A stretch of DNA of 64,000 bases from an uncultured Clostridium sp. GTDB lineage: Bacteria > Bacillota > Clostridia > TANB77 > CAG-508. The position numbers and the translations under genes are program-made. Location: NCBI GenBank assembly GCA_930980855.1, contig CAKNIZ010000002.1, forward strand, positions 1 through 64,000, given 5' to 3'. Below the pieces are notes generated by a model. The model saw nothing but the letters and a program-made list of their open reading frames with translations, did no database searches and was not told the DNA's origin. Numbering within the stretch: the first letter of the stretch is position 1; the number at the start of each line of letters is the position of its first letter. This document shows positions 54,820 through 61,289 of the stretch, piece after piece.

Positions 54820-56274
54820 TTATTTGTATAGGATTGGCCTTGATGAAGTTCCGATATCTCCGGTTAGTCCAGATCGATAAGGACTTGAATTATTATCTAC
54901 TCCTCTCCATGCACTTCCGTCTTCAAAGCTCCATCCAGATATTCTATGGCTATTATCTGATTTGAGCATTTCTGTTGACCATTCTCCTGCATTTCCACCA
55001 AGGTCATATATATTGTTTGCGCAAAATCCTATTTCTCTGCTTACTGTATTATCTAATAATTTAGCACCAGTCGTTAATAGTATTCGTCCACTTGAACTTC
55101 CAGCATCTGTAATCATAAAACCAGATGTATAATTTTGAAAATAATTATACATATTATTGTAATGTATTTCTTGATATAAGCAATTTATTAAATAACAAGA
55201 TCCTTTTATAGAATACCTTTCATACCAGAATGTATCCTGATAATTTCCCTCAGTTCCTCCAATCCAATTAAATGTGGTTGTTCTCGCATAACTGTTAAGC
55301 ATTGCGCTTTGTACTTCTCCATTATACATACTTTCTATATTTTCTTTTGCAACGTCATAGTCGATGTTAGTCCATGGCATTACTTGTGCAACACATACAG
55401 GTACTCCTTTTATGTTTCTAGCGTCATTTGTAAAATCTAGTACTGGTTCATCTCCACTTTTTTGTCCTGGCATTCCCATCTCATATCTTCCCATATAGAA
55501 TCCAGCATTTTCTGCCACACTTTGTTTAAAATATGCTATACTTTTTTTATCACTTATACTTCCTTCTTCTTCATACCAATTGGCATATTCTTGTCCTGTT
55601 TCTTTAAGTGTCCTTGTTAACTCTGATATTCCTAAATTTATTTCATCTGACTTTGCTATTACAATTCCGGAACTATCTGTTGCTTGAATAGATACTTGGT
55701 ATATACCACTTTTTACTGGTATCCATACAAATTCGTTTCCTAAGCTAGTATCCTTTATAACATATCCTGTATCCACTGTTCCTTCTGTATGCGTAAATCC
55801 GCTTGGTACATATGGATTTTTGTTTTCTAATGTTATACCTGTAGTATATTCTTTGTTTTGGGTCTTTTCTTTAGATTCTCCGTTTATAAAGTATTCATAA
55901 GTTATATTGTCTCCTAAATCGTCCGAGTTCACTTTTATTGTTATTGAATCTGTTGTATAACTTGTTTCTACATTTAATGGTCTTGTAGCTGTTCCAGTTA
56001 TTTTTTGTCCTTTCACATAGGCTGTTTTTCCTGCTAATATATCCTCTGGAGTTGCTGTTGCATCTGATGTGTCTAGTTCTTCTAACTTTCCCGTTACTCC
56101 GGCTATTGTTACACCTTTCTTTATATCTTCTGGATTTATTGCCCCACCATTTGCGTTTCTGGAATTACTACCAAATATTCCTACATTCGTTACTCTCATT
56201 GCTATAAATGATATTATTAAAATTACTAGTACTATTATACTTATTATAACTATTATTTTTCTTTTCTTTTTCAT
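54820..56274 (-). CDS. Membrane-anchored protein with C-terminal SUMF1/FGE-sulfatase-like domain
   Basis: EFVWIPV...GFYMGRYEM...GGNAGEWSTEM...WRG motifs. Confidence 0.75.
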   Translation of the reverse strand: MKKKRKIIVIISIIVLVILIISFIAMRVTNVGIFGSNSRNANGGAINPEDIKKGVTIAGVTGKLEELDTSDATATPEDILAGKTAYVKGQKITGTATRPLNVETSYTTDSITIKVNSDDLGDNITYEYFINGESKEKTQNKEYTTGITLENKNPYVPSGFTHTEGTVDTGYVIKDTSLGNEFVWIPVKSGIYQVSIQATDSSGIVIAKSDEINLGISELTRTLKETGQEYANWYEEEGSISDKKSIAYFKQSVAENAGFYMGRYEMGMPGQKSGDEPVLDFTNDARNIKGVPVCVAQVMPWTNIDYDVAKENIESMYNGEVQSAMLNSYARTTTFNWIGGTEGNYQDTFWYERYSIKGSCYLINCLYQEIHYNNMYNYFQNYTSGFMITDAGSSSGRILLTTGAKLLDNTVSREIGFCANNIYDLGGNAGEWSTEMLKSDNSHRISGWSFEDGSAWRGVDNNSSPYRSGLTGDIGTSSRPILYK

Positions 56275-56378: not shown

Positions 56379-56441
56379 TTAAACCCTACGATATATATAT
56401 ATATATATATATACAGCCCCAAGGCTTTCATCTGTTTTCAT
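56379..56441 (-). CDS. Leader short ORF copy 1 containing a TA microsatellite
   Basis: AAGGAGCATTAAATG start; MKTDESLGAVYIYIYIYRRV*; 23-nt AT tract 56391-56413. Confidence 0.5.
   Translation of the reverse strand: MKTDESLGAVYIYIYIYRRV
56391..56413. repeat. AT dinucleotide microsatellite (23 nt)
   Basis: Direct reading of 56391-56413. Confidence 0.95.
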
Positions 56442-56504
56442 TTAATGCTCCTTGTTTTAAAATTTATATGTATATATTAACATATAGTTTCAAATATTTC
56501 AATT

Positions 56505-58665: not shown

Positions 58666-60478
58666 CTATGCACCTAATTCAAATGGGATACTTGTTCCAT
58701 TTCCGCCTATTACTTTTGTTCCTGGTTTTAGCATGAAAACTGGACGCAAACCTGCTGAAAATTTAGAACTTCCTAGAGAATACCAAATGTATGTACATAA
58801 GTATTTATCCTCTTTTACTGCTCCTGCTTTTGCCACATATCGAACAGAAAAGAAGTGATCTGGTCCATCCCATGTATGATAACGTGATGTTAACCAATAT
58901 TTTTCTTCTATGCTATGAATTCCCAAAGCTTTCATTTGATTATAGTCTGTTTCATAATAGCTATCACCAGCTTTCAAGCGTCCACTATATTTATCCATAG
59001 AATCACTATTAACCATTCCAGCTCCGTCATAATCTGGGTTATTAGGAACAGATCCTACACATCTTGCTCTTGTAGAATATGCACTATTGTTATACTCATT
59101 TGCTTTACTATTTAGTGTACTTATCGCATTATTATAATCTCCCATTCCTTCAAGAGCTAATGTTTCAACACTCTGCATTGGTATTAATTGTACTCCATAG
59201 CCAGAGGAATTGTCATATAATACTATGCAAGTTCTTTTTGTTCCTTTTCCGTCTGTGTAATTAACATAATTTCCGGCTTTTAAAGTATCTTCAACAGTTG
59301 GATAACCTATCGCTGTTTTTACAGTTATAGTATTTTCACCTTTATTTCCTGCTTGGTCATATGCTTCTACTTTTATATTGTAGTTTGTCTCAGCAGTTAG
59401 TCCATTAAAAGTATATGTATTACTTTCAATTGTTGCTTTCTCTGTGCCATCTAAAAAATATTTATATGTTCCGCTTGCTGCTAGTCCACTTTCACCGTCT
59501 GTTGCTGTTACTGTTACTGTAATACTATTGTCCGTTACTGCTCCTGTTGCTATCTGACTTACTGTCGGTAATATTGTATCGGTTATGCTTGCACTTGCTG
59601 GTTCTGTTACATTTGTTCCATCTGTTAATATCGCATATACTGTTTGTCCATGTTTCAAACCTTCTATTTTACTTCCAGCACTTATATCAGTCCAAGTTCC
59701 TGAAAAACTATCAATTTGATATTGTAAGTTTAATACAGTTTCTTCTGTATTTATTGTTACACTAGCAGTTCCATTACTCCATATTGGGTCAGTAAAGGTT
59801 ATAGCGCCTACTGGTAACTCTCCTGTTAATACGTTTATAATTTTTTCTGTATTTCCACCTTTGGTTTCTACTTTAACTTTTATATTATATATTGTATTTG
59901 CTTCCAACTCATCGAATGTAAATGTATTTATACTTTCTTTTCCTACTTCATTCCAGTTTTCTTCTGCATCATCATTTTTTTTATATGAATATGTAAATGT
60001 GGCTCCATCTACCTCACTTGCTTCAACTAATATGCTAATACTACTTGTAGTTCTATTTGTTACATTGATTTTTATAATTCTCGGACCTTCTATTTTTCTA
60101 ATATATTTTCCTAACTTCGGAACACTTCTATCTAATTCAAATACAAATCCATTTAGTCCCACTTCATTTGTATCAAGATACACATTTGGTAATCTATCTT
60201 TTATAAAATTATTTAGAAATTCATTCTCATTATATTGTGAATTGGTTTGCTTGTCTATTGAAGCATCTGCTAGTACTATTTCAATTCGTTCTCTAGCTTC
60301 AGCTTTCTCTGTTTCAAATTTTGACTGTTGTGCTCGTGCTATAATACCATTTTCTCCCATTATCAAATTTATTGTTACTGCTGCCAAAATTAATAGAATT
60401 ATTATTGTTACGACTAGTGCTATAAGCGTTATTCCGTTTTTCTTGAGTTTTAATCATAAAAATTTTTTTCTTATTCAT
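58666..60478 (-). pseudogene. Pilin-like/Fn3-containing secreted protein with N-terminal frameshift
   Basis: ATG at 60478 with AAGGAG RBS gives MNKKKIFMIKTQEK; hydrophobic prepilin helix NGITLIALVVTIIILLILAAVTINLIMGENGIIARAQ is in a different frame, reached by loss of one A in A5 (60437-60441). Confidence 0.65.
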
Positions 60479-60539: not shown

Positions 60540-61019
60540 TTATTTTATCTCAGTTACTATAAAATCTTTTGCATCTACTACATTACCAGTTATATTTGCA
60601 TTAAGTTTGATGGTTTCTCCTGGTTCTATATCTCCTATTACTGGTTTTCCAGTTGTTATTACATTTCCATTTTTATCTAGTATATCTATTTTAACTATTT
60701 CCGCATTATGCTTTGTTGCTCCATTATTTTTTACATCTGCTAATAATACTGTCATTCCATCCTTTTCTGTATATTGAATATTAGTTATTTCTAAGTTTTT
60801 ATATTTCTTAGTGTTATTTAGTTCTTGGCTTGTATTTATTTTCGTTCCATCATCCAATTCTTTTATATATTCTTCTTCATTTGCTATTGGACTTTGTGAG
60901 TTTTGATTTTGTAGTGTTTCTTCCTCTTTATCCCCAAATATTAATGCTAATATTACTATTAATACAATAACTATTACTGCCCCTAATAATATCATCCATT
61001 TCTTTCCATTTCTATTCAT
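60540..61019 (-). CDS. Membrane-anchored FxLYD-like domain protein
   Basis: N-terminal TM; YKNLEITNIQYTEKDGMTVLLADVKNNGATKHNAEIVKIDILDKNG. Confidence 0.65.
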   Translation of the reverse strand: MNRNGKKWMILLGAVIVIVLIVILALIFGDKEEETLQNQNSQSPIANEEEYIKELDDGTKINTSQELNNTKKYKNLEITNIQYTEKDGMTVLLADVKNNGATKHNAEIVKIDILDKNGNVITTGKPVIGDIEPGETIKLNANITGNVVDAKDFIVTEIK

Positions 61020-61087: not shown

Positions 61088-61129
61088 AGAAACTATGCCT
61101 TTTAGATTCTTCTAAAAAGCATAGTTTCT
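61088..61129 (-). terminator. 19-bp hairpin attenuator/terminator, leader copy 2
   Basis: RNA arms AGAAACUAUGCUUUUUAGA / UCUAAAAGGCAUAGUUUCU fully paired, loop AGAA. Confidence 0.8.
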
Positions 61130-61200
61130 CTATGTCTACATAAGTCTATTTTGTTAGATTTCACCATATATATAGTCTTAAGACTTTCAATTTTTTTCAT
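61102..61200 (-). CDS. Leader short ORF copy 2 whose stop lies inside the hairpin
   Basis: AGGAGATAAACTAATG; MKKIESLKTIYMVKSNKIDLCRHRETMLFRRI*. Confidence 0.5.
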   Translation of the reverse strand: MKKIESLKTIYMVKSNKIDLCRHRETMLFRRI

Positions 61201-61289
61201 TAGTTTATCTCCTATTTATCTTTAATGTTATTCCTATTTTATACATATATTTTATTATAGTCAAGGTATTTTTACTCGATAATTCTATT

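Follow-up and report, generated by a model that had tools for sequence, protein, structure and literature searches.

A dispersed family of repeat-bearing leaders upstream of surface genes in one order of uncultured Clostridia, read as phase-variable transcription attenuators with one copy probably locked ON

The leader at 61.1 kb of a 64,000-nucleotide stretch of DNA from an uncultured Clostridium sp. (hereafter the window) very probably belongs to a dispersed family of transcription attenuators that are phase-variable and controlled by translation, and it would be locked ON. The members of this family share a plan in which a ribosome-binding site serves a short ORF (MKxxESLGAV) and a tract of (TA)n or (CA)n is followed by three unequal frames. 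Two of these meet a stop about 2-20 nt past the tract, whereas the third is open and stops inside a predicted intrinsic terminator directly upstream of a gene for a membrane-anchored or pilin-like surface protein. In the mechanism that we propose, the ribosome would start at MKxxESLGAV and cross the dinucleotide repeat, where slipped-strand mispairing would set the frame of the leader. In two frames, the ribosome would stop a few bases past the tract and well before the hairpin, so that the terminator would form and the surface gene would be off; in the third, it would translate into the terminator and stop at the loop, the hairpin would be blocked, and the polymerase would continue. With four TA repeats and in the third frame, the 61.1-kb copy would be locked ON, and its FxLYD gene would stay expressed as long as translation proceeds. 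This is the best reading for the leader family, and such a mechanism has been shown genetically for Streptococcus gallolyticus pil1 (PMC3894217). The sequences show the family, its frames and stops, the covariation of the terminator, and the differences in tract length; slippage rate, termination, read-through, and ON state are what we infer.

Two leaders of the family lie on the minus strand of the window (Table 1). The first-pass annotation had described a 32-aa ORF at 61.1 kb whose stop lies in the hairpin, had aligned it with a shifted frame of the leader at 56.4 kb, and had assigned stems and loops of the same size to the two copies. All of this stood: the stop codon falls in the 3' arm just past the loop, gain of one TA repeat or loss of two at 56.4 kb opens the frame YIVGFNRIHLCKHSKSYVF followed by a stop, and the two hairpins have the dimensions given (fold z-scores of -5 to -7). 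The homology of the two leaders is strongly supported by the conserved box, whose exact matches in the window are confined to them, and by their recovery with a covariance model at E values of 1e-17 and 6e-24. The U-tract of the 61.1-kb hairpin is interrupted, and the terminator scan did not call this hairpin. Promoter-like sites in the region occur in about the number expected by chance, and the one upstream of the 61.1-kb leader is therefore a weak candidate.

Table 1. Elements of the two leaders and their downstream genes, in window coordinates
Feature	Position	Strand	Basis
Promoter-like site TTGACT-17-TAAAAT upstream of the 61.1-kb leader	61236-61264	minus	consensus scan, 10/12
Shine-Dalgarno and ATG of the 61.1-kb leader ORF, AGGAGATAAACTAATG	61213-61198	minus	sequence
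61.1-kb leader ORF, 32 aa, long (predicted ON) frame	61200-61102	minus	sequence; aligned with 13 paralogues in the genome
Shortened TA tract of the 61.1-kb leader, TATATATAT	61174-61166	minus	sequence
Conserved box of the 61.1-kb leader, ACTTATGTAGACATAG	61145-61130	minus	motif search and paralogue alignment
Terminator-like hairpin of the 61.1-kb leader, 19 bp, loop AGAA	61129-61088	minus	fold z about -7; covariation in 55 homologues
Gene for FxLYD-domain protein, membrane-anchored, 159 aa, downstream of the 61.1-kb leader	60540-61019	minus	NCBIfam FxLYD_dom, 28.9 bits (cutoff 23)
Shine-Dalgarno and ATG of the 56.4-kb leader	56439-56453	minus	sequence
56.4-kb leader ORF, 20 aa, predicted OFF frame, MKTDESLGAVYIYIYIYRRV and stop	56379-56441	minus	sequence
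TA tract of the 56.4-kb leader, 23 nt, putative slippage site	56413-56391	minus	sequence
Box of the 56.4-kb leader	56370-56355	minus	exact match
Predicted intrinsic terminator of the 56.4-kb leader, 19 bp, loop AGAA, tail TTTGTG	56353-56312	minus	terminator scan, fold, covariation
Gene for TM-anchored surface protein of the IKKGVTIAGVTGK family, FGE-like motifs, 484 aa; putative target of the 56.4-kb leader	54820-56274	minus	ORF; similar genes after most leaders of the genome

The family extends well beyond the window. Nine exact matches to the 15-base core of the box occur in the window's own genome, and reading them revealed homologous leaders. A covariance-model search, which the first-pass annotation had proposed as a check, was run with a model built from 14 leaders of this genome and found 34 matches in its 1.55 Mb (two of them partial, at contig ends), both window copies included, and matches in 22 of 58 relatives, with a maximum of 42 in one genome. 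The leader thus has many homologues, and it gave no match in Rfam at the gathering threshold; a permissive Rfam scan returned weak hits far under their cutoffs, the top score being PyrG_leader with 20 bits against a cutoff of 65. Of 388 genomes sampled across the order, 83 carried the 5'-motif pattern, representing 20 of 48 genera (reversed control, 0); in a class-wide sample of 391 genomes, six carried it, all six inside the order, so that the family was not seen outside the order in that sample. A scan of viral contigs for the motif gave no match, and the named records that carry the leader are MAGs of uncultured Clostridia. In some congeners and in other genera, CA replaces TA in the tract, and a locus of the own genome (L244, G000:C1:32649-32788) carries a mixed TATACACACA repeat that forms a bridge between the two types. 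Several genomes of the same genus (G004, G005, G009, G010, and others) have zero model matches; either the system was gained or lost within the genus or it was missed in incomplete MAGs. Five loci with CA-type 5' motifs (L126, L148, L160, L171, and L115) are followed by genes without pilin-like N-termini, most of them lack a strong terminator, and they are possibly decayed or differently used copies. Two leaders of the own genome, L053 and L054 (G000:C3:6780-8973), lie about 2 kb apart with element and near flanks identical, which points to a recent tandem duplication of leader and gene.

As a guard against search bias, the hairpin was assessed in a held-out set of 92 leaders picked by the 5' motif alone, 89 of which have a terminator-like stem followed by T, with a median energy of -22.0 kcal/mol against -1.4 in shuffled sequences. 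The paired changes that had been noted between the two stems of the window also hold on an alignment of 55 hairpins, where 96.7% of cells are paired and eight pairs have double changes (27 double-change cells versus 6.2 in shuffles). It is unlikely that the hairpin is no terminator and that the leader acts at translation, passage of the ribosome through the hairpin remodelling the 5' UTR and freeing, or coupling to, the surface gene's ribosome-binding site. The hairpin does lie some tens of nucleotides upstream of the start codon, where a translating ribosome would unfold it under either reading, but the T-rich tails of the hairpins, found in nearly the whole held-out set, the terminator call for the 56.4-kb copy, and the position of the surface gene's own Shine-Dalgarno outside the stem all argue against this. 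The 3' half of the box can also base-pair with the terminator's 5' arm: ACATAG and CTATG (columns 14-18 with 27-31 of alignment A2) are pairable in 97.4% of cells, and no covariation is seen in this alignment, in which the pairing is nearly invariant. An antiterminator role for this kept but non-covarying pairing is unsupported; it may possibly be a pause hairpin.

The reading frames follow the same plan across the family. An SD-like site precedes the ORF in 116 of 126 TA-type copies with an ATG. In 89% of TA-type leaders (n = 141; shuffles, 26%) and in 67% of CA-type leaders (n = 67; shuffles, 18%), just one of the frames extends to the loop and ends there; of the 79 strong-terminator leaders of the held-out set, 77 have just one frame that enters the hairpin (shuffles, 0.435), and in 69 the entering frame stops inside it (shuffles, 0.387), counts that are descriptive and not independent, since the leaders share ancestry. 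The conserved open frame and the shared device put forward in the first-pass annotation are thereby strongly supported. The first of the off-frame stops is TAG in some copies and TAA in others (55 versus 52) and the second is an almost invariant TAA, whereas neighbouring bases drift. Most changes in spacer length, taken from the FN anchor to the stem, are multiples of three, and four copies with a spacer that departs from this have an insertion in the stem that compensates for it. No third-position excess of the kind expected from selection on a peptide is seen in the long frame; therefore, the openness of this frame rather than the peptide seems to be conserved. That transposition or gene duplication has spread the leaders as a MITE-like dispersed repeat without a function in regulation, frame and hairpin being kept by descent, is very improbable. 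Such an origin would fit the high copy number of some genomes, the near-identity of many cores, and the duplication of some leaders together with their genes (as for L053 and L054), but it would not account for terminator stems that differ by compensated changes, for spacer changes mostly in steps of three, for copies placed just upstream of surface genes, or for a one-open-frame plan that survives, in the CA version of other genera, both the swap of TA for CA and the replacement of most of the spacer. We give least credence to the short ORFs being functional small proteins with a phase-variable C terminus and an independent downstream gene, since, despite the recurrent N-terminal ESLxAV and C-terminal KHxKxTMLFRRI, synonymous-position change is not in excess, the C terminus overlaps the covarying stem, and in most copies the frame yields a peptide of only 15-20 aa.

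In agreement with slippage in the tract as the switch of the proposed attenuator, each listed TA run of at least 16 nt in the own genome lies within a leader and the five others fit the three remaining long-tract leaders, and all such runs appear to be within these leaders. Between species, two orthologous locus pairs differ in tract length, with 17 versus 21 and 15 versus 23 nt (short-read MAG consensus lengths, one genome per species), at 95.9% and 93.8% identity around the leader, the first pair being alignable over 5.5 kb. The predicted ON frame is found in 14 of 126 TA copies (about 11%), 13 of 62 CA copies, and 8 of 74 held-out copies, and in the own genome in three of about 26 scorable leaders (a tally in which one leader enters twice), namely the 61.1-kb leader, L045, and L057. 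It is thus rarer than one third, which needs selection or bias as an explanation. At 61.1 kb, the tract is 9 nt with four TA repeats, whereas the other copies mostly have 17, 21, or 23 nt, and its slipperiness has probably been lost. Taken by itself, this copy therefore does not have the slippery repeat of a pil1-type attenuator, and we read it as a locked derivative that is itself not phase-variable, probably locked ON with constitutive read-through predicted. The "constitutive version" of the first-pass annotation fits the four TA repeats, the long frame with its stop in the hairpin, the interrupted U-tract, and the FxLYD homologues of relatives, almost all of which have no leader in the examined flank; in the one exception (in G001), a leader is present with a 19-base tract and is also in the ON frame. 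A short tract alone, on the other hand, does not denote ON, because the short-tract copies L051 and L056 of the own genome (G000) are in OFF frames, suggesting that repeat loss freezes either state.

Most leaders of the own genome precede members of one paralogous membrane-anchored family with a IKKGITIGGITGT segment and FGE-like motifs, and in relatives, about half of the leaders of TA type, and three quarters of those of CA type, stand before genes with a type IV pilin-like N terminus (GITLIALVVTIIVLLILAG). Pfam searches with the downstream proteins were mostly empty, with FGE-sulfatase and N_methyl appearing below cutoffs only. An AlphaFold model of the 484-aa protein (15 sequences) had a mean pLDDT of 50.8, and a PDB search with this model returned nothing below an E value of 0.49. 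The product of the gene after FxLYD (58666-60420, minus strand) is an fn3 protein whose N terminus, GITLIALVVTI, resembles that of type IV pilins; at window positions 60380-60475, no ATG is in frame with this N terminus, the nearest one being in another frame, so that the gene is frameshifted or has an unusual start.

Control of this kind is known. Danne et al. (2014) described a phase-variable leader peptide with GCAGA repeats for pil1 and pil3 of S. gallolyticus (PMC3894217). For pil1, control of transcription attenuation by the leader frame was demonstrated experimentally and genetically, a short frame that stops well before the hairpin giving low expression and a long frame that stops in the hairpin giving high expression, and most cells are low-expressing (PMC3894217). 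As in pil1, the repeats of the family described here lie within a leader ORF that has its own ribosome-binding site and start codon, a premature stem-loop terminator (by sequence and fold) stands between this ORF and the surface or pilus genes, and one frame ends inside the terminator and the others well before it, here as read from the DNA. On the other hand, the repeat is a TA or CA dinucleotide rather than a pentanucleotide, there are tens of copies per genome (34 here) in one order of uncultured Clostridia rather than two pilus operons, and the targets are surface proteins that resemble type IV pilins or are membrane-anchored; the likeness claimed for the leaders is one of architecture and logic. 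In trp-type attenuation, formation of an intrinsic terminator depends on the position of the ribosome on the leader, and the same would hold here, although the position would be set by the frame after repeat slippage and not by starved codons, and the leaders have no regulatory codon run and no supported antiterminator. In the phase variation of Haemophilus and Neisseria by simple sequence repeats (e.g. Opa proteins), the repeat typically sits within the affected gene or its promoter; the traits shared with that system are numerous contingency loci, slipped-strand repeats, and surface proteins, whereas here the repeat is in a separate leader ORF and is proposed to act through a terminator. In the searched literature, repeat-driven attenuation is known only from one Streptococcus species together with a close relative, and phase variation was reviewed in 2025 with no mention of attenuation or leader peptides.

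The principle behind the device is therefore already described in S. gallolyticus (PMC3894217); as far as the searched literature shows, what is new is the type of repeat, the occurrence of homologous leaders as a multi-copy family, the host order, and the genes targeted. It seems likely that the family constitutes a genome-wide contingency system in this order of uncultured gut Clostridia, in which tens of surface or pilin-like genes per cell would be under one homologous family of repeat-driven attenuators, with few on at once and with leaders becoming frozen on or off as the repeat erodes. The same logic is met here in a family of dispersed leaders that number tens per genome and occur in 20 of the 48 sampled genera of one order. 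The leaders offer a sequence handle by which the surface state of uncultured gut bacteria would be readable from metagenomic repeat lengths, and with which the number of surface proteins expressed simultaneously may be tested.
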